The translations under genes and the position numbers were made by a program. From Deltaproteobacteria bacterium (GTDB taxonomy: Bacteria; Desulfobacterota; DSM-4660; Desulfatiglandales; HGW-15): 29,475 nucleotides of DNA. Every line of letters starts with the position of its first letter. The first letter of the stretch is position 1. The stretch spans positions 1 to 29,475 of the forward strand of contig JAFGDF010000108.1 of the NCBI GenBank assembly GCA_016932235.1, in the 5' to 3' direction. The notes beneath the pieces were generated by a model. The model was not told where the DNA came from. It did not search any database and saw nothing but the letters and a program-made list of their open reading frames with translations. Below, one piece after another: positions 4,201-15,586 of this stretch.

Positions 4201-4704
4201 CTAACCCCCGGATTCCTGTTTTTCAATGTCATATTCTATATCCTCATTAGCAATCCAATCCTTGATATAATGGATGATTATGTTACCACTTCCATTTCGT
4301 GTCACTACTTTGTCCAAGCCCGCATTAATAATCACTCTCTTGCACAATCTACACGGCTCCGCTCCGGCTTGAAGCGGTCTCCCATCTCCCATGTCCACAC
4401 CCATGAGATACATAGTTCCACCAATTGCATCTTTTCTTGAAGCATGAATGATGGCGTTCATCTCCGCATGCACGGATCTGCACAGCTCATATCTCTCACC
4501 TGATGGCACGCCCATGCTGGATCTGGGGCAATATTTTATTTCCACACAATTTCTTGTTCCCCTTGGAGCCCCTGTGTATCCAGTAGAAATAATTTCGTCA
4601 TAATTGACAATGACAGCGCCATAATTCCTTCTGAGACAAGTCCCCCGCCGGGAAATTTCTATCGCAATGTTTAGATAGTAGTCGTCTTTGCTAATTCTCT
4701 CCAT
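4201..4704 (-). CDS. Deoxycytidylate (dCMP) deaminase, ComEB-like
   Basis: Members of this family deaminate dCMP to dUMP, feeding thymidylate synthesis. The 167-residue protein has the cytidine-deaminase zinc site: HAE at 79-81 (zinc ligand His and catalytic Glu) and PCRLC at 117-121 (two Cys ligands). The substrate-loop signature GYTGAPRG is at 42-49. Length and motif order match bacterial dCMP deaminases such as ComEB. The start at 4704 is preceded by GGAAAGGCGGG on the minus strand. It follows the CooT-like gene by 63 bases on the same strand, but I see no functional link to nickel. Confidence 0.93.
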   Translation of the reverse strand: MERISKDDYYLNIAIEISRRGTCLRRNYGAVIVNYDEIISTGYTGAPRGTRNCVEIKYCPRSSMGVPSGERYELCRSVHAEMNAIIHASRKDAIGGTMYLMGVDMGDGRPLQAGAEPCRLCKRVIINAGLDKVVTRNGSGNIIIHYIKDWIANEDIEYDIEKQESGG

Positions 4705-4767
4705 CTGACCCGCCTTTCCTCAATAAATCCGGTGTATCACTTTTAAATACCCAGGGCGTTCTTACCC

Positions 4768-4992
4768 TTAATCTCCTATGCTATTCATTGAGCGAAGGCT
4801 TTTGTGATTTTCGATCATCACAAAGTGACCGTCCATAAGATTGATTGTCTGAATTGTTCCTTCGATAAATGTTCTTTCTCCAAAAAGGTTGATCAGCCAG
4901 AAACCATCCTGGCCAGCCTCTATTCTGGCCACATCTTTCATAATTTCTTTTTGTTCATTGCCCAAATTAATATACACCGTACTCAAACACAT
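4768..4992 (-). CDS. CooT-family small nickel-binding protein
   Basis: This 74-residue protein begins MCLSTVY. CooT proteins start with a conserved Met-Cys, and Cys2 is a nickel ligand in characterised members. The body is a short beta-rich sequence (DVARIEAG, GFWLINLFGE, GTIQTINLM) typical of the family. A clear AAGGAGG precedes the ATG at 4992. It lies 115 bases downstream of a cooC-like gene, supporting a role in nickel delivery to carbon monoxide dehydrogenase or a related nickel enzyme. No CODH structural gene is in the window. Confidence 0.85.
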   Translation of the reverse strand: MCLSTVYINLGNEQKEIMKDVARIEAGQDGFWLINLFGERTFIEGTIQTINLMDGHFVMIENHKSLRSMNSIGD

Positions 4993-5107
4993 ATTCGCCT
5001 CCTTATCCGCCTATTCTGTGGCGATGTCGCGTGATATACTTACTTTTCTCTCGAAAACCGAAATGTATTATCCCACGCCAAAAAATCATTTCCGTAGTTT
5101 TTATTTG

Positions 5108-5866
5108 CTACCTCTCAGACAACAGCCTTTCCAGCACCTTTTCTGCCGCGTGAAAGGCTTCTCCCTTGTCCAGCACATGGCCTTCCAGGCAGGCATCAAA
5201 TACCTCTGGATCATTTGGCATGGTTCCGATTATTTCTATTCCCCTGCCTTTTATTTCTCTTTCCAATTTCTGGGTCACTTCTTCAGAGGGCATCTTGTTT
5301 AAAATCGCAATGACGTCCTTTTTCATGCCGCCGGCGAGTTCCCTTATCTTTTCAGCTATATTCACGGACTCAAATGACGGCTCAACCACAAGAATAACCT
5401 TGTCAATAGCCTCATCAATCCCTCTCCCGAAATGCTCAACGCCAGCCTCCATATCAACCAGTGCGATCCAATTTTCATTGAGACGAAGCTTTTTCAAGAA
5501 TTCACGGCTCAGCACTCCCATGGGGCAGGCACATCCTTCAAGGGATCTGAGAATCTTCCCAATGCTGAGGAGCATGAATCCATCATTATTCCGGATATAA
5601 CGGGATGGAATCTCCTCAAGTCTAATCTCTTCGCCCTCAAAAACATTAGGCTTTTGCATTTTCTTCTTCAGTGCCCCTTTTCCTCCTAAAAGTTCCATAA
5701 GTGGGAGAGGCGGACTCTTGAAACCGAGCATTCTGAAAAGACTGGAGTTCGACTCGTCGGAGTCAATAACCAGAACCAAAAACCCTCTTTCTTTAGCAGC
5801 TTTGGCCAACAGTGTTACAATAGTGCTCTTTCCACTCCCTCCCTTTCCACAAACGGATATCTTCAT
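5108..5866 (-). CDS. cooC: CooC-type nickel-insertion ATPase
   Basis: CooC is a MinD/ParA-fold ATPase that dimerises and helps insert nickel into the C-cluster of carbon monoxide dehydrogenase. The 252-residue protein has the deviant Walker A motif GKGGSGKST (7-15), the DSDESNSS switch-region sequence near 35-42, and a CxC motif at Cys112/Cys114 in GCACPMG. These are the positions of the metal-binding pair at the dimer interface of the characterised Carboxydothermus CooC1. The late motif ILNKMP fits the nucleotide base-contact region. GGAGG precedes the ATG at 5866. Its partner CooT is next. The CODH it would serve is not in this window. A MinD-like ATPase for another nickel enzyme is the main alternative. 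Confidence 0.88.
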   Translation of the reverse strand: MKISVCGKGGSGKSTIVTLLAKAAKERGFLVLVIDSDESNSSLFRMLGFKSPPLPLMELLGGKGALKKKMQKPNVFEGEEIRLEEIPSRYIRNNDGFMLLSIGKILRSLEGCACPMGVLSREFLKKLRLNENWIALVDMEAGVEHFGRGIDEAIDKVILVVEPSFESVNIAEKIRELAGGMKKDVIAILNKMPSEEVTQKLEREIKGRGIEIIGTMPNDPEVFDACLEGHVLDKGEAFHAAEKVLERLLSER

Positions 5867-5925
5867 TTATTAAACCTCCATATCTCAAGAGTATTAATCT
5901 TTTTCATATATAATCAATATGTCCG

Positions 5926-7635
5926 CTATAACACGACATTTAATATTGTCCCGGCCAAGAGAGCGGTAAAAATCATTATACCGCTTGACATTAATGTTTT
6001 TGGAACCCCAAGCTCCCTCAGAAACACAACAAAAGTTGCTATACATGGGAAAAACATTACCAGCACCACACTGGCAACAACCAGTTGTTTGGCGCTCAAT
6101 CCTAGAGGAGCCATCATGCCAAGAGCCACATCTTTTCTTAACAAGCCGATGATCAAAGAAATTACCGCTTCTTCAGGTAGTCCGAGAAGACCAATGATTA
6201 CGGGCGCCGTAAAATTGGCGATTACTCTAAATACTCCAAGAAGATGGAGCATATTAATAACCACAATCGCAACGAGAATAATGGGAACGGCCTCCGCCAA
6301 AAAACCATAGGCCCTCATCCACACCTTTTGCAACACGACAGGCCATGGTGGCAAACGATAGGGTGGGATCTCAATCAAAAGTTCGGGTCTGAATCCCTTC
6401 ACCGCATGCTTGAGAATAATGCCAAGGATAAGCCAGAACACAAAGAGAGTGCCGTAAACAATCATCACGTATCGCGCCCCGTGTTGACCAACCAGCCCGA
6501 AAATCATGGCCTGCAAAGCGGCACAGGGAACAGCAATAGTTATCAGTGTAGAGGCAATAAATCTTTCTCTTTTGGTTTCCAGTATTCGCGTCGCCAGTAC
6601 AGCAGGCACATTGCAACCGAACCCAAGCATAGTAGGAATGATCGCATACCCATGTAACCCAAGACGGTGCATCATGGTGTCTACCAGAACTGCCAGTCGC
6701 GGCAGGTAACCGGTATCCTCAAGTAAACCAATTACTAAGTAAAAAGAGACAATGTAAGGCAATACCATGGCAAAAGGAACATAAAGTCCACTCGAAATAA
6801 GCCCAAAGGACTCCACAAAATTTACCTCCCCTTCGGTTAGCTTCCCTACCACGACATCGTGTAGAAAACCGCTCCCCCCCATGATAGCGCTTAGCCTCAA
6901 TACCACCGGTTCCCATAAGCACGTAAAGAAAGGATCAAGCACATGCTTGATAAGGTTCTCACCGATAAGCCTAATTACATTAAATGCAATAAAAAGCATT
7001 AAGATTGCTATAATAATGCCTGTTATCGGTTTAACACTGGCATCCTGGAGACTTTCGATCCAGGTATGATGCCGGTGGTCAATACGCTGAACATGGCTTA
7101 TGATCTCTCCAATCGTAATCCATCGCTCATCACGCCCGCGGGGAGATGTGCCCGGTGTTGTTGCATGGGGAATATTTTGGACAAGGTCCTTTATTCCCTC
7201 ACCGGTCAGGGCCACCGTTGGAATAACCGGAACCCCTAAAAGGGCGCTTAATTTCTTCACATCAATATGTATTCCACGATGCTTCGTATCGTCCCACATG
7301 TTTAATGCGACAACGATCGGAATCCCTTTTTCTAACAACTGCAAAGTAAGATACAGGCTCCTCTCCAGATTGGTCGCATTCACCACATTGATAACTGTAT
7401 CCCCGCTTTGCAGCATCTTAAGCGCGATTTTCTCGGCTTCGGAGGTCGGTTCCAGGGTATAGGTCCCGGGCACATCAATGACTTCAACCTTTTCTTGTCC
7501 AACCTTTAAAAAACCTCTGGTATAGCTTATCGTAGATCCGGGATAGTTAGAGACGGTGGTACGCACACCGGTCAGGCGGGAAAATACAACACTCTTACCC
7601 ACATTAGGGTTCCCTACCAGTAGGATTTTTTTCAT
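5926..7635 (-). CDS. feoB: Ferrous iron transporter FeoB
   Basis: FeoB imports Fe(II) across the inner membrane under anoxic conditions. The N-terminal G domain shows G1 GNPNVGKS (8-15), G3 DVPGTY (54-59) and G4 NMWD (112-115). The membrane part has two Gate-type repeats, for example the stretch with LGFGCNVPAVLATR and the later PCIATFVVFLREL. At 569 residues it is shorter than the ~770 residues of the E. coli protein, which fits compact FeoB forms and not a truncation, since both Gate repeats are present. The ATG overlaps the feoA stop by four bases (7632-7635), implying translational coupling. Metal-responsive control is likely, but no clear Fur-type operator was found. Confidence 0.95.
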   Translation of the reverse strand: MKKILLVGNPNVGKSVVFSRLTGVRTTVSNYPGSTISYTRGFLKVGQEKVEVIDVPGTYTLEPTSEAEKIALKMLQSGDTVINVVNATNLERSLYLTLQLLEKGIPIVVALNMWDDTKHRGIHIDVKKLSALLGVPVIPTVALTGEGIKDLVQNIPHATTPGTSPRGRDERWITIGEIISHVQRIDHRHHTWIESLQDASVKPITGIIIAILMLFIAFNVIRLIGENLIKHVLDPFFTCLWEPVVLRLSAIMGGSGFLHDVVVGKLTEGEVNFVESFGLISSGLYVPFAMVLPYIVSFYLVIGLLEDTGYLPRLAVLVDTMMHRLGLHGYAIIPTMLGFGCNVPAVLATRILETKRERFIASTLITIAVPCAALQAMIFGLVGQHGARYVMIVYGTLFVFWLILGIILKHAVKGFRPELLIEIPPYRLPPWPVVLQKVWMRAYGFLAEAVPIILVAIVVINMLHLLGVFRVIANFTAPVIIGLLGLPEEAVISLIIGLLRKDVALGMMAPLGLSAKQLVVASVVLVMFFPCIATFVVFLRELGVPKTLMSSGIMIFTALLAGTILNVVL

Positions 7636-7883
7636 CTGACCTGATCCATATTAACCATGATCCGGTTGGCCATGCCGAACCCTATCGCCAACTGAACCCT
7701 GTCCACCTCAATGGTTACGGGCCCTTGTCCTATCATGGAGCTTATCTTAGTAATTTTCTTGCCTGGCATGATGCCGAGGGCGTTAAGACGCGCAATAAAG
7801 CCAAATCCTCCTTTAATCTCGGCTATTACTCCGCTATGCCCGGACCGCATCTTTGTCAAACTTATTAGATTGCTTCTGACCAT
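7632..7883 (-). CDS. feoA: FeoA, small SH3-like partner of FeoB
   Basis: This 83-residue cytoplasmic protein has the FeoA-type SH3 fold. Residues such as LNALGIMPGKKITKISS, followed by GPVTIEVDRVQLAIG, match the FeoA core where the family has RL..LG..PG and G.P..V...... It is thought to modulate FeoB. It overlaps feoB by four bases. It starts 75 bases after the ZIP transporter gene, on the same strand, so the three may be co-transcribed. Confidence 0.92.
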   Translation of the reverse strand: MVRSNLISLTKMRSGHSGVIAEIKGGFGFIARLNALGIMPGKKITKISSMIGQGPVTIEVDRVQLAIGFGMANRIMVNMDQVR

Positions 7884-7930
7884 AACACCTGTTCCTTGTA
7901 AATTCTGAAATAACTTTTTAGGAACCTTTT

Positions 7931-7957
7931 GGACTTTGTCCGACAGATTCCCAGTCT
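7931..7957. repeat. Copy 1 of a short dispersed repeat (zip-feoA gap)
   Basis: The 27 bases GGAC-TTT-GTCCGACAG, then two variable bases, then TCCCAG-x-CT, recur at 27919-27945 with six substitutions, three of them in the loop (TTT versus AAA). This copy retains only the inner 4-bp hairpin GGAC/GTCC and looks truncated relative to the second copy. Confidence 0.5.
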
Positions 7958-7958
7958 T

Positions 7959-8687
7959 TTATTTAGAAAATATGATCACCAGGGCCACCAGAACCCCGCT
8001 TGCCAAAGCAATGAAGCTGTAACTCTTTCGTTCCGTCTCAGACTGGGGCAGGAGGTGAGACGCACCCACATAAACCAATGATCCGGCAGACAATGAAAGC
8101 AGTGGCCCTAGGATCGATTCGTCAATTTGGCTTATGTACGGGAATGATACAAGCATCCCTGCGGGTGTGGTTAATGCCGCCGCAATGAAGGAAAGCAAAA
8201 GGGAAATCCGTTTGCTGAAGCCACTCCTCAATAAAAGCAGATAGGTAATAATACCCTCAGGGAACTCATGAAGGACCAATCCAACAGCGGTCATAAGACC
8301 CGTAAAAAGGCTGACAGTAAAGGTTATGGAGTAAATGAAACCGTCAATAAATGAATGGAAGCCTATTCCCAGCATCGTGATCAAACCGATGGAAGAGTGA
8401 ACACTGGGGTCTTTATCGCACACAAAGGCATTCACAAAACGGTTGAACAAATGCAATCCGAAATACCCTGCCAGCAGATAAAAAGGGGCATGAACATTCA
8501 TCCTAAAAGCTTTTGGAATGATATGCAAAAACGAGACGGAAATCAAAACACCAGCGGCAAAACAGATAAAATATATGGTATTTCTGTGCCCCCATTTTTC
8601 AAAACGTCGGATAACGTAGATGCCTGTTGATGTCACAACTGCTGCCAGGAGACTTGCTCCAAACGCCGTCCAAAAGGTTCCTTCCAT
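7959..8687 (-). CDS. ZIP-family divalent metal transporter
   Basis: ZIP proteins move zinc, iron or manganese into the cytoplasm. The 242-residue protein has about eight hydrophobic segments. It carries the two family metal-site motifs: HSFIDG (111-116) on TM4 and HEFPEG (140-145) on TM5. The extramembrane loop between TM3 and TM4 is short and lacks a long His-rich stretch. AGGAAA precedes the ATG at 8687. Its position directly before feoAB suggests iron or zinc as substrate, but the metal cannot be assigned from sequence alone. Confidence 0.9.
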   Translation of the reverse strand: MEGTFWTAFGASLLAAVVTSTGIYVIRRFEKWGHRNTIYFICFAAGVLISVSFLHIIPKAFRMNVHAPFYLLAGYFGLHLFNRFVNAFVCDKDPSVHSSIGLITMLGIGFHSFIDGFIYSITFTVSLFTGLMTAVGLVLHEFPEGIITYLLLLRSGFSKRISLLLSFIAAALTTPAGMLVSFPYISQIDESILGPLLSLSAGSLVYVGASHLLPQSETERKSYSFIALASGVLVALVIIFSK

Positions 8688-9775: not shown

Positions 9776-10642
9776 TCATATCCCAAGGGCATTCTCGAGA
9801 TCTTTCCAGATCTTTTTGATCGATTCAGCGCCAATGGAATGCCCGTCATATTCAAAAATTGTCTGCCCCCTGACCATTGCCCTCGTAAAGACAGGATCGA
9901 ACGGTATTCGGCCCATCACCTTTATGTGGCTCTCTTTTGCAAAGACTTCTATGGCCTTTCCCTGTTCAGGATTGAGATCAAATTTGTTGACACATATCAT
10001 GGCCGGGACCTTGAAAAAGGCGGCCAGTTCTGCTACACGTTCCATATCGTGCCTTCCCGAAACCGTGGGTTCTGTCACAATAAGGACAGCCGTGGCCCCG
10101 CCGAGTGATGCAATCACGGGGCATCCTATTCCCGGAGGGCCGTCTGTGAGAAGTAAATCAAGGTTGCGTCCTTCCACAAGCTTTTTACCTTCTTGCCGGA
10201 TAAGTGTCACCAACTTGCCTGAGTTTTCCTCCGCAATGCCCAGCCGCGCGTGGGCCATCGGCCCAAAACGCGTCTCAGAAATAAACCATTCTCCGCATGT
10301 ATTCAGGGGAAAGTCAATTGCCTCTTCAGGACAAAAATAGTGACATACTCCGCAACCCTCACAGGCGATGTTATCCACGACAAAATCTTCGCTTATGGCG
10401 TTCCACCTGCACAGATCCCGGCAACGACCGCACCGGGTGCACTTATCCTGATTTATTACGGCAGTGTGTCCTGAATCAAAATCATGACGCTCCTTTATGT
10501 GCGGATCCATAATCAAATGGAGATCCGCCGCGTCAACATCCGCATCACAAAGCACCTTGTTCTTTGACAGGGATGCGAAGCTTGCCACTATGCTCGTTTT
10601 CCCTGTTCCACCCTTTCCGCTTATGACAACCAGTTCCCTCAT
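9776..10642 (-). CDS. MinD/NBP35-type ATPase with inserted two-cluster ferredoxin domain
   Basis: This 288-residue soluble ATPase has a deviant Walker A GKGGTGKT at 9-16. A 2[4Fe-4S] ferredoxin insert has Cys68, 71, 74, 78 and Cys94, 97, 100, 104. The DGPPGIGCPV switch region and the late base-contact motif CVNKFDLN follow. Paired ATPases of this architecture occur in ORP operons of Desulfovibrio and in many Desulfobacterota. They are thought to act in assembly or transfer of metal clusters. It lies 35 bases downstream of a close paralogue, with which it may form a heterodimer. The start at 10642 gives the usual short N-terminal strand before the P-loop. Confidence 0.92.
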   Translation of the reverse strand: MRELVVISGKGGTGKTSIVASFASLSKNKVLCDADVDAADLHLIMDPHIKERHDFDSGHTAVINQDKCTRCGRCRDLCRWNAISEDFVVDNIACEGCGVCHYFCPEEAIDFPLNTCGEWFISETRFGPMAHARLGIAEENSGKLVTLIRQEGKKLVEGRNLDLLLTDGPPGIGCPVIASLGGATAVLIVTEPTVSGRHDMERVAELAAFFKVPAMICVNKFDLNPEQGKAIEVFAKESHIKVMGRIPFDPVFTRAMVRGQTIFEYDGHSIGAESIKKIWKDLENALGI

Positions 10643-10677: not shown

Positions 10678-11535
10678 TTAAGATCTTTCCAGTTCTTGAC
10701 GGGACACTATCCCTTCAATTTGATGAAACAAATCCTTGAATTTCTCCTTCCATTCGGGCATCGCCTCGACCAGCATCTCGCCCTTGGAATAAGACTCCGC
10801 AATTTTTCGATCAAAAGGAATCTCCATCAGAATAGGTATCCCTTCCTTTTCAGCAAACTCTCTTACCCGATCATCACCCATATCGGACCGGTTAATGATT
10901 AGCCCGCAGGGAATCCCGAGGATGTCCACCGCGCCTGCGGCAAGCTTAAGGTCATAAAGGCCGAACGGTGTCGGTTCCGTGACCAGCAATACAAAATCCG
11001 CCCCTCTCATGGAGGCGATCACAGGACAGGATGTGCCAGGAGGGGCATCAATGATGGTGATCATCCCCGGTCGCGTTTTTTCTCTGACTTTTCGGATAAG
11101 AGGGGGAGACATGGCCTCCCCTACTCTCAATCTGCCATGCACAAATTCCAGTCCGTTCCTGCGCCCCAATTCTATCACACCCAGTTCACGCCCCACCTCG
11201 GTAATAGCCTTCTCCGGGCACACCTCCATGCATCCTCCACAGCTATGACAGAGTTCATGGAAAGGCAAGACTGTTTCACCAATGACTACGATTGCATTGA
11301 ACTGACAGATCTCGCTGCACTTCCCGCAAAGGGTGCATTTTTCCATATCCACTTCGGGCACAGGGGTGGTTATAGTCTCAACCCTTTCAATCACCGGCCG
11401 GATAAAAAGATGAGAGTTTGGCTCCTCAACATCGCAGTCCAGTAGCTGAACCCCTGATTCAAGCGAAACGGTCAGATTGGTAGCCACCGTCGTCTTTCCA
11501 GTCCCGCCCTTTCCGCTTGCTATGCTTATTATCAT
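10678..11535 (-). CDS. MinD/NBP35-type ATPase with inserted two-cluster ferredoxin domain (paralogue)
   Basis: This is the partner of the next gene downstream. GKGGTGKT begins at residue 9 of the frame, and the ferredoxin insert has Cys68, 71, 74, 78 and Cys97, 100, 103, 107 (numbered from the TTG at 11538). The switch region is DAPPGTSCPV and the base-contact motif is IINRSDMG. The frame opens at a TTG, but AGGAG with a six-base spacer points to the ATG at 11535 as the real start. It follows an IscU-like scaffold by about 20 bases. A linked role in cluster delivery is likely by analogy with Mrp/NBP35 carriers. Electron input through the ferredoxin insert is inference. Confidence 0.92.
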   Translation of the reverse strand: MIISIASGKGGTGKTTVATNLTVSLESGVQLLDCDVEEPNSHLFIRPVIERVETITTPVPEVDMEKCTLCGKCSEICQFNAIVVIGETVLPFHELCHSCGGCMEVCPEKAITEVGRELGVIELGRRNGLEFVHGRLRVGEAMSPPLIRKVREKTRPGMITIIDAPPGTSCPVIASMRGADFVLLVTEPTPFGLYDLKLAAGAVDILGIPCGLIINRSDMGDDRVREFAEKEGIPILMEIPFDRKIAESYSKGEMLVEAMPEWKEKFKDLFHQIEGIVSRQELERS

Positions 11536-11555
11536 CAATGACTCCTAATTCTCTA

Positions 11556-12002
11556 TTATGTATTACTTTTTTCGAGCTGTCTTCTCATATGATCATCGAG
11601 AGCTCCCTGAAGCGTTTCCGCTGCAAGAAAAGCACAGTGCTGATTCTCCTCTGGCAGGCCACTCAGAACATCAAGGATCATTTCTCCTGTAATTTCAGCA
11701 AGTTCATCAGGATTCCTCCCATGGGCCAGCTCGGCAGCGATGGAACCGCAAACTATGCTGGGACCGCATCCATCGGTTTGAAATGACGCCTCTTTCACCC
11801 TGTCTCTCTCAAATCTAAGAAAAATTTCCATCGTATCGCCGCAAGCCCCAGTGACACGGGCATACCCATCAGGATCGGACATCACGCCTATGAACAGAGG
11901 CTTAAGCCATCTATCAAAAGCTACCTGCCCATATGCCTTCCTTGTCTCTCTATAAATCTGATCCTGTAACTCTCTGGCAAAATCATCAAATTCGTCATAC
12001 AT
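11556..12002 (-). CDS. IscU/NifU-like iron-sulfur cluster scaffold (copy 1)
   Basis: This 148-residue protein has the three scaffold Cys of the IscU fold in order: GACGD, then TDGCG, then the QHCAFLAAETL helix. The Asp after the first Cys, important for cluster release in IscU, is present. An extra Cys (IVCGS) follows the second ligand. The N-terminus has an additional helix (about 1-30). No cysteine desulfurase is in the window, so sulfur supply must come from elsewhere. It lies between a NifX-like gene and the ferredoxin-MinD pair. The ATG at 12002 has a weak ribosome site, which may mean coupling to upstream translation. Confidence 0.9.
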   Translation of the reverse strand: MYDEFDDFARELQDQIYRETRKAYGQVAFDRWLKPLFIGVMSDPDGYARVTGACGDTMEIFLRFERDRVKEASFQTDGCGPSIVCGSIAAELAHGRNPDELAEITGEMILDVLSGLPEENQHCAFLAAETLQGALDDHMRRQLEKSNT

Positions 12003-12139: not shown

Positions 12140-12580
12140 TTATCTATTCCTGCCGCGTCCCATACCTTTTCCGCGGCCCATCCCTCCGCCGCCCATACCG
12201 CGACCTATTCCAAAATGGCTTTCTACGTTCGGACCGGAGTCAGCACTAATCTCTCCCCTTCTGAATCTTTCAACCGCCTGCCGAACCTGTCCCTCTATCC
12301 CGGTTATCACCTTAATACCGGAAGCTCCGAATGTACGGAACGCATTGGGACCACAATTACCGGTCAAGACAAATAATACGCCCTTGTCAGCCATTAACTG
12401 GGCTGACTGTATGCCCGCACCGCCTCCAAGGGAGACATTGGGATTCGGAATTGCCTCGAATTCCAAGGTCTCCGGATCGATGATTAAGAAGTAAGGGCAA
12501 CGCCCGAAGCGGGGTTCAACAACATCATCGAGCGTCGGTCCGGTGCTGCTAACTGCGATTTTCATCTTATTATTTGACAT
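12140..12580 (-). CDS. NifX/NifB-like dinitrogenase FeMo-cofactor domain protein with Gly-rich tail
   Basis: This 146-residue protein is a single Di-Nase_FeMo-co-type domain: IAVSSTG at the start, VEPRFGRCPYFLIID, the central LTGNCGPNAF loop, and GIKVITG. Family members bind Fe-S or Mo-Fe-S cofactor precursors; the ORP of Desulfovibrio is a single-domain member carrying a Mo-Cu-sulfide cluster. A GRGMGGGG/GRGKGMGRG tail follows, and the frame then stops abruptly while another frame continues with a helical tail. It overlaps the upstream scaffold gene by 11 bases. AGGAGG precedes the ATG at 12580. It is the best candidate in this window for an ORP-type cofactor carrier (inference). Confidence 0.9.
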   Translation of the reverse strand: MSNNKMKIAVSSTGPTLDDVVEPRFGRCPYFLIIDPETLEFEAIPNPNVSLGGGAGIQSAQLMADKGVLFVLTGNCGPNAFRTFGASGIKVITGIEGQVRQAVERFRRGEISADSGPNVESHFGIGRGMGGGGMGRGKGMGRGRNR

Positions 12581-13040
12581 TATTTTCCTCCTGTTTTGGC
12601 TTGGTCAATGCAGTTTGTCTGACCATATAATCGTTGAGAGCTTCCTGGAGAGTCTCCGCAGCAAGAAAGGCGCAATGGGCCTCCTCTTCCGGGAAACTCC
12701 CCACAATTTCCATGAGACTATCACCAGTAATTTCCAGAACCTCCTCAGGACTTTTCCCGATAGCCATTTCGGCGGCAAAAGAACCGCAAACCGTAATGGC
12801 GGCACATCCGTCTGTCTGGAACGCGGCCTGTGCCACATGTCCCCTGTTAAACTTCAGACTGATCTCAATTGTTTCCCCGCACTTGCCGGTAAGGCGTGCA
12901 TGGCCGTCAGGATGCTCTATGCTTCCCCTGTATATCGGATTCCTCCATCGTTCATAAGCCGAGGGGCTGAAAAAATCTTCTTCCTCCTTAAGCATTTTGC
13001 CTTTCAGTTCGAGCTTATCGCGACTATTTTTCTTCCTCAT
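12570..13040 (-). CDS. IscU/NifU-like iron-sulfur cluster scaffold (copy 2)
   Basis: This 156-residue paralogue of the scaffold at 11556-12002 has its three key Cys in GKCGE, TDGCA and the AHCAFLAAETL helix. It differs at positions next to the ligands: Glu instead of Asp after the first Cys, and Ala instead of Gly after the second. It also keeps the extra Cys in TVCGS. The N-terminal ~30 residues are very basic and acidic, unlike copy 1. Its stop overlaps the NifX-like start, so the two are probably translationally coupled. A GAGG sequence lies upstream of the ATG at 13040. Confidence 0.9.
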   Translation of the reverse strand: MRKKNSRDKLELKGKMLKEEEDFFSPSAYERWRNPIYRGSIEHPDGHARLTGKCGETIEISLKFNRGHVAQAAFQTDGCAAITVCGSFAAEMAIGKSPEEVLEITGDSLMEIVGSFPEEEAHCAFLAAETLQEALNDYMVRQTALTKPKQEENNVK

Positions 13041-13182: not shown

Positions 13183-14436
13183 TTAATGATCACACGCGTT
13201 TTCCCCTGTCACCAATAAGCCTGCAAGATACTGGTTGACAAGCGATTCCGGCGGATCCATGGTCGCGCCTGTGATAACCCTGATTCCATTTTCCACAAAA
13301 AGCTGTTGAGCCCTGGATCCCATCCCTCCGGCTATTATTACATTGGCGCCCAGATCATGAAGCCATCTGGGCAAAACCCCGGGCTCATGCGTAGGGGGCG
13401 TATGCATCACCTTGCCATTGATCTTTCCAGCCTCGGTCTCAACCAAGGCAAACTGCTCACAATGTCCGAAATGGGAACAAAGCTTCCCTTCCATCAGAGG
13501 AATAGCGAATATGATTTTATCCTCATGACCTGCCTTTGGAGCCGCCGAAACCGATTTCCCGTCGCTTTGTTCATGCGAAACATCACGCCCGACCCGCTCC
13601 TTGGTCAATTCAATCACATTATCCACCATTAGGTTAAAGGCTTTATTGAATGGCAAGCGATCACTGTTCAGGTCGGCAACATTCCCCGTATCTCCTTGCT
13701 TGACGATCTCGGGCTCAATAGGCAATTTCCCCAGGAGAGTCAGATTCTCCCTCTGGGCCAGTATTTCGCCACCACGGGTTCCAAAGAGTTCTATTTCCTT
13801 TCCGCAGTGCGGACAAAGCAACCCGCTCATGTTCTCCACTATCCCTAGTATCTTCATATTAACCTGACGACAAAAATTGATGGACTTCCTTACATCAGCG
13901 AGGGAGACCTCCTGCGGTGTCGTTACAATAATCGCTTTTGCGTCGGGTATCGTTTGCGCGACTGTCAAGGGTTCGTCCCCTGTACCCGGAGGGGAATCAA
14001 CAATGAGATAATCAAGGCGGGGCCATTCCATATCCGAGATGAACTGACGTATTACACCTATTTTTAGAGGTCCCCTCCATATGGTTGCTGCGTCTTTATT
14101 CTCTCCCAGAAGAGTCTCGATAGATATGACCTGCAGATTTGGAGAGAAAAGAACGGGTATCGCTTTTCCTGAATGCGAAGACGGTTGGATGTCTCCTTTT
14201 AATCCCAGCATCCTGGGGATACTCGGACCGTGGAGATCGACATCCATAAGTCCGACGCTGAATCCTCTGTCAGCAAGAATCACTGCCATGTAGGCGGCTA
14301 CACTGCTTTTGCCCACACCTCCTTTACCGCTCATCACAAGGATCTTGTGTTTGATGTGGCTCAAGGTTTCCCTGATCTCCGCATCCTGTATTCTATGCTT
14401 TTCATCCCTACTTACATCTTGGTTATTTGTTGCCAT
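13183..14436 (-). CDS. MrpORP-type ATPase: Mrp/NBP35 carrier fused to a C-terminal NifX-like domain
   Basis: The ~417-residue protein has two parts. The first is an Mrp/NBP35 P-loop ATPase with GKGGVGKSS, the DVDLHGPSIPRMLG switch, DSPPGTGDEP, and the CPHCGKE motif (CxxC) that binds a bridging [4Fe-4S] cluster in Mrp homodimers. The second, about the last 115 residues, is a Di-Nase_FeMo-co-type domain starting IIFAIPLMEGKLCSHFGHC and ending near GVRVITG-like GIRVITGA. This fusion is the hallmark of MrpORP, described in Desulfovibrio alongside ORP genes. The frame is open to an ATG at 14454. GGAGG at 14448-14452 lies inside that longer version, so the ATG at 14436 is preferred, though its spacer is long (11 bases). 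Confidence 0.92.
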   Translation of the reverse strand: MATNNQDVSRDEKHRIQDAEIRETLSHIKHKILVMSGKGGVGKSSVAAYMAVILADRGFSVGLMDVDLHGPSIPRMLGLKGDIQPSSHSGKAIPVLFSPNLQVISIETLLGENKDAATIWRGPLKIGVIRQFISDMEWPRLDYLIVDSPPGTGDEPLTVAQTIPDAKAIIVTTPQEVSLADVRKSINFCRQVNMKILGIVENMSGLLCPHCGKEIELFGTRGGEILAQRENLTLLGKLPIEPEIVKQGDTGNVADLNSDRLPFNKAFNLMVDNVIELTKERVGRDVSHEQSDGKSVSAAPKAGHEDKIIFAIPLMEGKLCSHFGHCEQFALVETEAGKINGKVMHTPPTHEPGVLPRWLHDLGANVIIAGGMGSRAQQLFVENGIRVITGATMDPPESLVNQYLAGLLVTGENACDH

Positions 14437-14485
14437 AAAACTATAGTCCTCCATTCCATATTATTTTTTTCTCCCTTTCGATTCT

Positions 14486-14824
14486 TTACTTGGGGCATCC
14501 TGTCACCATAAATTTTCGACAGTTCAGGGAATCCTCAAGATATGCATTCAAAACCTCCTCCGCCTCCCCGCAGATAAACGATATTAGCTGAATTCCATAC
14601 CCTTGCAAAAGGCCGGCGAAGAAATCTGATATGGCGCCGCAGATCAAAATCTCCACGCCGAAATCAGAAAGCCTTCTGGCACGGTAGAATACTGACTCCA
14701 CATCGAAAAACTCAGTGCGCCTGTTACAAACGATTCCATTTTCAACATCCACGACAAGCAACTGCCTCGTCAAGTCAGCCACAGGAGAAATCCTGTTTTC
14801 CCAGACTGTCAGAACTACCTTCAT
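14486..14824 (-). CDS. Small NifX/ORP-like protein, first gene of the operon
   Basis: This 112-residue protein resembles a single Di-Nase_FeMo-co domain: MKVVLTVWENRISPVADLTRQLLVVDVE at the start (given here in outline), then GVEILICGAISDFFAGLLQGYGI, then a Cys-containing end. The usual mid-domain HFG motif is absent, so it is a divergent member and possibly a partner or chaperone rather than a cofactor carrier. It is the most upstream gene of the assembly cluster. Its start lies about 19 bases after the transcription start predicted from a strong sigma-54 promoter. Thirty bases or so separate it from the MrpORP gene. Confidence 0.82.
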   Translation of the reverse strand: MKVVLTVWENRISPVADLTRQLLVVDVENGIVCNRRTEFFDVESVFYRARRLSDFGVEILICGAISDFFAGLLQGYGIQLISFICGEAEEVLNAYLEDSLNCRKFMVTGCPK

Positions 14825-14854
14825 CGCCCTTTAACCCCCATATCGCATGGAAAG

Positions 14855-14869
14855 GCAAGATCGGTGCCA
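14855..14869 (-). promoter_or_regulatory. Sigma-54 (-24/-12) promoter of the metallocluster operon
   Basis: Read on the minus strand, the site is TGGCAC-CGATC-TTGC. It has the invariant GG and GC doublets at the required spacing and is followed by C and a T-rich run. Transcription would begin near 14843, about 19 bases before the first ATG. ORP operons in Desulfovibrio are sigma-54 dependent, which agrees. The activator gene is not in this window. Confidence 0.8.
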
Positions 14870-14908
14870 TAGATATAAGTTAACATTAAAAAATAAAAAT
14901 TTTAAACT

Positions 14909-14921
14909 TATCAACAGGTTA
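14909..14921 (+). promoter_or_regulatory. IHF-type bending site
   Basis: TATCAA-CAGG-TTA matches the IHF consensus WATCAA-N4-TTR at every defined position and has an A/T-tract on its 5' side (14887-14904). It lies between the sigma-54 promoter and the upstream palindromes, where a bend would bring an activator to the polymerase. Confidence 0.6.
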
Positions 14922-14945
14922 TCCAAGAAAAGGGGGAAGCAAGAG

Positions 14946-14964
14946 ACCGATAGGCGTTATCGGT
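14946..14964. promoter_or_regulatory. Perfect 7-bp inverted repeat in the sigma-54 control region
   Basis: ACCGATA and TATCGGT flank a 5-base centre. The repeat sits beside the tandem ATTGC-N4-ATGCAA sites and could be a second operator or a terminator-like hairpin. Its role is unknown. Confidence 0.4.
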
Positions 14965-15011
14965 ATTGCAATTATGCAAGATATTATATGATTGAAATTG
15001 CGTAAATGCAA
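14965..15011. promoter_or_regulatory. Twin upstream activator sites ATTGC-N4-ATGCAA
   Basis: Two copies of ATTGC-N4-ATGCAA occur at 14965-14979 and 14997-15011, exactly 32 bp apart (about three helical turns). The second is part of a 9-bp perfect inverted repeat (14993-15016). They centre about 129 and 161 bp upstream of the predicted start, a normal distance for sigma-54 enhancer-binding proteins. Confidence 0.65.
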
Positions 15012-15088
15012 TTTCATCTAATTGTCATGCTTTCATGCCCTTTTTCCAGGAGAGGGAAAAGACGGGATAAGTCAGGGCGGCAAAGATC

Positions 15089-15586
15089 CTAACATTCCGC
15101 GTATTTCTTCAGCTCCCCTGAAAGTATACGCAGATGCCCTTTTTCCTCTTCGATTAATTTGTCAATAAATTCTCTGCCTTTATCCTCTTCGATGGAATCT
15201 TTTATGAGCACGTAGAACAGTATGGATTCCTTTTCAAAATCAATTGCGAACTTGAGGGCTTCCTTTATATCCTTCACCTGCTCGAGTTTTTCTTCAACAG
15301 TAGCTTCTTTCTTGAAGATATTTATATCAGCCATCATCTTGAGGTAGGCCTCTGTTTCATTGTCCGGATCCCACGCCACCTGTTTCTTTGCAGAATCAGG
15401 AAGCTTCGCTTTCATGGAGATAAAAGCTTCTTTATGCTCCTGCTCCTGCCCGGCCAGATCATGAAAAAGTTTCCTGATTTCAGTGTTTTCCACCAATTCT
15501 CCGGCCCTCTCATAAAATAAACGGCCGTTTTCTTCAATCTTTATGGCCACCTCAAAAATTTCCATCGCGTTAAATCCCAGAATCAT
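15089..15586 (-). CDS. Rubrerythrin-like ferritin-fold diiron protein (no rubredoxin domain)
   Basis: This 165-residue four-helix-bundle protein has the two pseudo-repeats of a rubrerythrin diiron site: Glu19 and E48-x2-H51, then Glu118/Glu120 and E148-x2-H151. There is no C-terminal CxxC rubredoxin module, so it is an erythrin-type short form and not a full rubrerythrin. Such proteins reduce peroxide or hold iron in anaerobes. AAGGAG precedes the ATG at 15586; a second ATG seven codons in is possible. It has its own predicted promoter and is separated from the metallocluster operon by about 260 bases of control region. Confidence 0.88.
   Translation of the reverse strand: MILGFNAMEIFEVAIKIEENGRLFYERAGELVENTEIRKLFHDLAGQEQEHKEAFISMKAKLPDSAKKQVAWDPDNETEAYLKMMADINIFKKEATVEEKLEQVKDIKEALKFAIDFEKESILFYVLIKDSIEEDKGREFIDKLIEEEKGHLRILSGELKKYAEC

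Follow-up and report, generated by a model that had tools for sequence, protein, structure and literature searches.

A likely sigma-54 enhancer-promoter with a conserved twin operator ahead of an orp-type metal-cluster operon

The window analysed here, a stretch of 29,475 nucleotides, contains an operon of orp-type genes, ahead of which a reading of the sequence had recognized a sigma-54 promoter, an IHF site and two copies of a short motif. The question raised by this locus is whether these elements form one control region and, if so, which kind of protein would act on it. We put at about 0.85 the probability that the region is the sigma-54 enhancer-promoter of the operon, with an OrpR/DVU2106-like enhancer-binding protein (EBP) acting from twin palindromes across IHF-bent DNA. 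The individual parts of this sequence-only reading were recovered and, judged by their recurrence in relatives, the role it gave to the region is very likely right.

Table 1. Genes and putative control elements of the operon in the window
Feature	Position	Strand	Basis
Second P-loop NTPase with 4Fe-4S ferredoxin motifs	9776..10642	-	domains
P-loop NTPase with 4Fe-4S ferredoxin motifs	10678..11538	-	domains; likeness to Orp3/Orp4 inferred
Second NifU_N-type protein	11556..12002	-	PF01592
PF02579 protein	12140..12580	-	PF02579 domain
NifU_N-type scaffold protein	12570..13040	-	PF01592
MrpORP iron-sulfur carrier (ParA/NUBPL NTPase + PF02579)	13183..14454	-	NF041136 equivalog (NCBIfam), 526.5 bits, cut-off 450
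First operon gene, dinitrogenase iron-molybdenum cofactor domain	14486..14824	-	PF02579, 26.6 bits, cut-off 26.3
Sigma-54 promoter TGGCAC-N5-TTGC (-24/-12)	14855..14869	-	exact sequence match; similar element at similar distance in relatives
A/T-rich tract, promoter to IHF site	14880..14906	none	sequence
IHF consensus TATCAACAGGTTA (WATCAA-N4-TTR)	14909..14921	+	exact match; place and orientation recurrent among modules
Promoter-proximal activator palindrome (putative) ATTGCAATTATGCAAG	14965..14980	none	sequence, relatives; one edge base off
Promoter-distal activator palindrome (putative) ATTGCGTAAATGCAAT	14997..15012	none	sequence, relatives; 32 bp from proximal

The operon itself is of the orp type: MrpORP and P-loop NTPases with 4Fe-4S motifs are encoded in one cluster, as judged from NF041136 and from PF02579, CbiA/ParA and Fer4 domains. 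In the available part of PMC6345978, Orp3 and Orp4 are reported to carry two 4Fe-4S motifs, and the NTPase domain of MrpORP to pass its Fe-S cluster on to ORP-complex apo-proteins in vitro. The layout of D. vulgaris, with two divergent operons and the EBP gene in the cluster, was not found, all orp-type genes of the window being on the minus strand. The two P-loop NTPase genes are followed by genes for small proteins, a ZIP transporter, a FeoB-like transporter, a CbiA/ParA-type NTPase and a deaminase; the metal transporter, NTPase and deaminase genes occupy 4201-8687, downstream of the orp operon and on the same strand. In one relative, locus L002, homologues of the ZIP and deaminase genes occur in the window's order and are followed by an OrpR-like EBP gene. 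A rubrerythrin-family gene (15089-15586) lies upstream of the operon on its strand, in the position held by the activator gene in another relative, L001.

The promoter sequence proposed in the sequence-only reading was borne out: TGGCAC-N5-TTGC, which agrees with the GG-N10-GC and TGGCAC/TTGC consensus of sigma-54-dependent promoters, has its sole exact match in the window at 14869-14855. Shuffled windows contained 0.023 exact matches on average (300 shuffles), and shuffling of the 264-bp intergenic stretch produced one in 1 of 2000 cases. Weaker matches were uninformative, since 26 sites with up to two mismatches were present and 21.5 expected. Transcription is predicted from the position of the -24/-12 element to start near 14843, which would place the palindrome centres near -130 and -162.

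Two copies of ATTGC-N4-ATGCAA were indeed found 32 bp apart, at 14965-14979 and 14997-15011, and they are the only exact matches in the window, where the motif with up to two mismatches occurs 12 times against 13.6 expected. A comparable palindrome pair at 30-33 bp was obtained in 0 of 300 window shuffles. As a definition of the motif, however, the string did not hold: it covers each copy only in part, the full units being 16-bp inverted repeats, and its letters are not conserved. What is conserved is the spacing and a more general palindrome, RTYGCA-N4-TGCRAY, which describes the sites across loci. All four half-sites of the window read TTGC.

The perfect IHF consensus is likewise an exact match where it had been placed, but on its own it is at chance level. 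The window holds two matches with 1.86 expected, and 77 of 2000 shuffles of the intergenic stretch contained a perfect one; we therefore discarded it as stand-alone evidence. Between the IHF site and the proximal palindrome, a 7-bp inverted repeat (ACCGATA-N5-TATCGGT, 14946-14964) was observed, of which no counterpart was seen by eye in the L001 region. We also considered the palindromes as the transcription terminator of the upstream gene and rejected this, the sole terminator-like hairpin detected by the scan (14964-14946) standing beside them and being at chance level, with 1.3 expected.

Comparison with relatives was based on the best 80 of 409 stretches encoding MrpORP relatives, some of which share one genome. 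Among these 80, MrpORP was closest in L001 (81% identity), L002 (78%) and L003 (76%). The pair was present upstream of the homologous operons in all three, as the sequence-only reading demanded, at 31-33 bp and together with an IHF consensus and a sigma-54 site: GTCGCAATAATGCGAC and GTTGCAAAAATGAAAC in L001 (33 bp), GTCGCATCAGTGCGAC and GTTGCAAAAAAGAGAT in L002 (32 bp), GTCGCGTTGTCGCACT and ATTGCAGAGATGCGAC in L003 (31 bp). The second copy was degenerate in L001 (9 of 10) and L002 (8.5 of 10). The sigma-54 site lies 30-40 bp ahead of the operon's first PF02579 gene in L001 and L003, and about 1.1 kb ahead of MrpORP, with other genes between, in L002.

The 80 loci and the window yielded 76 upstream regions of at least 400 bases, reduced to 75 by dropping one redundant region. 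A strict pair at 31-33 bp was present in 17 of the 75 (window included), absent from 58 and never obtained in 20 shuffles, a count that is not blind and is partly circular, because the palindrome score was generalised after some of the loci had been seen, and that comes from mutually non-independent loci. The same holds for the 30 pairs at 30-33 bp found in 26 sequences when all 1,092,484 bases (window plus 80 loci) were scanned. Of these 30 pairs, 26, in 22 sequences, were followed 80-130 bp downstream by a sigma-54-like site scoring at least 8 of 10, always on the operon's strand and never on the opposite one; the four pairs that have no promoter-like site are in L009, L054, L055 and L059. 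The remaining 50 spacings (17 to 70) together gave nine pairs, three with a sigma-54-like site, and two of these three overlap true pairs in L003 and L026.

An enumeration of repeats that was blind to the motif ranked TTGCA-N4-TGCAA first (6 of 53 loci) and GTCGC-N6-GCGAC second (5 of 53) downstream of H-helix EBPs, the best repeat in one shuffle reaching 1; relatedness inflates such counts, since upstream of the H-helix EBP genes other repeats reached up to 8 of 53 closely related loci. For 13 R-helix EBPs the top entry was GGAAC-N7, in four loci, and the eight entries listed included neither palindrome. In L031 and L033, twin sites 32 bp apart with a shorter inner spacer, TTGCA-N3-TGCAA, were seen downstream of the EBP gene.

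For the geometry of the module, 32 cases were assembled from the 80 loci, the window and the hand-picked L116, L122, L123, L136, L170 and L171, with the promoter allowed 60-140 bp away and with the L003/L170 region and L026 each counted twice. In this set, 84-124 bp separate the second palindrome from the promoter. An IHF consensus with at most one mismatch was found in 15 of the 32 modules versus 3.7 (largest 11) in 200 shuffles, and in 8 of the 32, the window included, it lies in one orientation 42-46 bp beyond the second palindrome, a place picked after inspection of the data, for which 0.12 were expected (largest 2 in 500 shuffles); both shuffle sets preserve base composition only. Within the module set, the distances from second palindrome to promoter form two groups, near 98-101 and near 111-117 bp, that differ by roughly one helical turn. 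One relative, L003 (5782-21111) with L170, carries the twin-site/sigma-54 module at five separate places in or beside its orp cluster. One of them is directly upstream of that relative's own EBP gene; after the last two, the nearest listed frames are those of a radical SAM protein, some 0.5 kb further along, and of a putative heavy-metal chelation protein (DUF4213/DUF364).

In the four whole genomes scanned, the combination of elements was specific for orp clusters. Four genomes (about 20 Mb) contained 12 exact palindromes versus four matches of a reversed control pattern. Four of the 12 were paired at 31-33 bp and also accompanied by a sigma-54 site scoring at least 9 of 10; these four all fell within orp clusters, in the genomes G001, G002 and G003. 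The remaining eight were partnerless, two of them near a weak 8-of-10 sigma-54-like site. In G006, the fourth genome, the orp promoter (locus L083) lacks an exact palindrome and escapes the exact pattern.

Which protein would bind these sites? A phmmer search of the six frames of the window with the EBP of L001 gave no hit. Since the window encodes no EBP, we infer the binding protein from relatives. An EBP gene, recognized by motif, lies directly upstream of the operon in L001, L011, L012, L019, L021, L025 and others, and an OrpR-like gene also adjoins it in Desulfovibrionales loci, if not in every relative; in L002 the OrpR-like EBP is encoded only at the far end of the cluster. Because so many relatives have its gene beside the operon, an OrpR/DVU2106-like protein acting in trans is the likely binder of the window's palindromes. 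Action in trans is plausible given the window without an EBP gene and the remote one of L002.

OrpR, which we take to be DVU2106, was reportedly described in a 2021 paper as an Fe-S redox sensor. The EBP of L001, the one submitted to a profile search, has a PAS domain, a sigma-54 interaction domain and a Fis-type HTH by Pfam. A C..C..C pattern in the PAS domain was found in 62 of 68 OrpR-like EBPs, and the cysteines were located by eye in the other six. Across 73 copies, not dereplicated, we counted GAFTDA in 32, GAFTGA in 22, GAFTNA in 11 and GAYTGA in 8, so that GAFTDA or GAFTNA occurs in 43; DVU2106 is tabulated with GAFTDA in the available part of PMC4641369. A homologue at E 1e-130 or better was present in 79 of 120 sampled genomes from the order of L067, often, in the loci read, beside genes similar to those for the window's PF02579 and MrpORP proteins. 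A strict pair lies downstream of only 7 of 37 dereplicated H-helix OrpR-like genes, which counts against this assignment.

The main reading can be refined further. Since all four half-sites of the window are TTGC, the activator may be a W-helix (H-[TP]-[ST]-TLWRK) paralogue of OrpR and not an F-helix protein like that of L001. When the adjacent OrpR-like EBPs for which a site could be detected were compared, 12 of the 21 F/Y-helix proteins had TCGC half-sites and none of the 7 W-helix proteins did (Fisher p 0.01, a value that ignores common descent). This contrast between helix classes is only suggestive: 24 further F/Y, 5 further W, 5 R-helix and 9 of 10 unclassified cases have no detectable site, and some distal sites fall below the cut-off, as in L019 and L025, which are scored as TCGC-free despite a weaker GTCGC site. 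Moreover, 9 of the 21 F/Y cases also have no TCGC half-site, so the odds of a W-helix activator are modest; the half-sites of the window fit both classes and would favour the W class slightly. No scored RTYGCA palindrome was seen downstream of KNTLRR/KDTLRR-helix EBPs among the relatives. The presence of a strict pair by helix class (H-helix 7 of 37, R-helix 0 of 10, other 0 of 2) was too weak a contrast to use.

In a broader and tentative picture, which we regard as possible but would not presume, anaerobes would hold several paralogous OrpR-operon sets separated by a small recognition code: GTCGC-containing palindromes would go with the helix HKSTLFRK, TTGC-only ones with H[TP][ST]TLWRK, and neither kind with KNTLRR/KDTLRR, the first two sets having a twin-site chassis in common. 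The operon of the window would then have lost its neighbouring activator and now depend on one supplied in trans, which may be a paralogue from the other class.

The palindromes could instead serve a different dimeric regulator (a repressor or a CRP/FNR-type protein) as its operator, sharing the intergenic region by chance with a sigma-54 promoter whose EBP binds elsewhere. It is common for 16-bp inverted repeats to act as operators, and the window indeed has no EBP gene to claim them. We nevertheless judge this improbable, as the pair tracks OrpR-like genes and, in 26 of 30 cases, a sigma-54-like site on the strand of the operon, and as L003 and its continuation L170 repeat the module ahead of several distinct sigma-54 sites. 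That an A/T-rich intergenic region produced all the elements by chance, as expected for the IHF match alone, is highly improbable, since the twin spacing and its link to the promoter recur in relatives and the shuffled upstream regions gave no strict pair.

Under the preferred reading, that of a sigma-54 enhancer-promoter with an OrpR-like activator, an EBP with PAS, AAA+ and Fis-type HTH domains would be encoded elsewhere in this genome and would occupy each palindrome with one dimer, the two standing some three helical turns from each other, a placement that may favour assembly of the AAA+ ring. IHF bound at 14909-14921 would bend the DNA and bring the ring to sigma-54 polymerase at 14855-14869, which would open the promoter near 14843 and so turn on genes that assemble iron-sulfur clusters. 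Through its PAS domain with three conserved cysteines, the activator would probably depend on redox or Fe-S state.

The switch is of an ordinary kind, with a conserved operator that is undescribed in the text of the literature searched; a figure of PMC4641369 shows EBP motifs and may include that of DVU2106. In transferable form, the operator consists of two RTYGCA-N4-TGCRAY palindromes with a spacing of 30-33 bp, placed roughly 84-124 bp ahead of a sigma-54 site. Genomes distant from Desulfovibrio could be searched with it for metal-cluster genes under OrpR control, and a single binding assay could test how specific the paralogous activators are.

In the sigma-54 enhancers of NtrC, NifA and PspF, dimer sites come in pairs at roughly 100 bp upstream or further away, and IHF often acts in between. 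The paired-site layout of the window is alike, whereas recognition sequence and regulator subfamily differ. The closer parallel, to the ORP operons of Desulfovibrio, had already been drawn from sigma-54 and EBP in the sequence-only reading; it holds for the architecture and extends to IHF at the orp promoters (PMC3897727, available part). D. vulgaris itself was not recognized among the loci compared, and three IHF strings given in PMC3897727 had one match, of one string, in L001-L137 and L081-L157 (in L127), which we took as chance. According to the available part of that report, the orp1 and orp2 promoters of D. vulgaris Hildenborough need sigma-54, DVU2106 and IHF, as examined for the activator and ihfA with a lacZ fusion in E. 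coli, and functional IHF sites lie between the promoter and EBP sites at -131 and -88. Expression there requires the IHF site. As far as that part of the report goes, the operons of D. vulgaris are two and divergent, the DVU2106 gene belongs to the cluster, a single EBP-site position is given for each promoter and no A/T-rich bend lies between the sites; the window has one co-directional operon and no EBP gene, two sites 32 bp apart and an A/T tract. Common to both are Orp-type genes including MrpORP, a sigma-54 promoter, a palindromic upstream EBP site (putative here) and an IHF site between the two, so that palindromic sites, IHF site and promoter follow in the order of the OrpR (DVU2106) regulon. 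Even the distance is similar: the EBP site of orp1 is at -131, and the proximal site of the window would lie nearby, at about -130.
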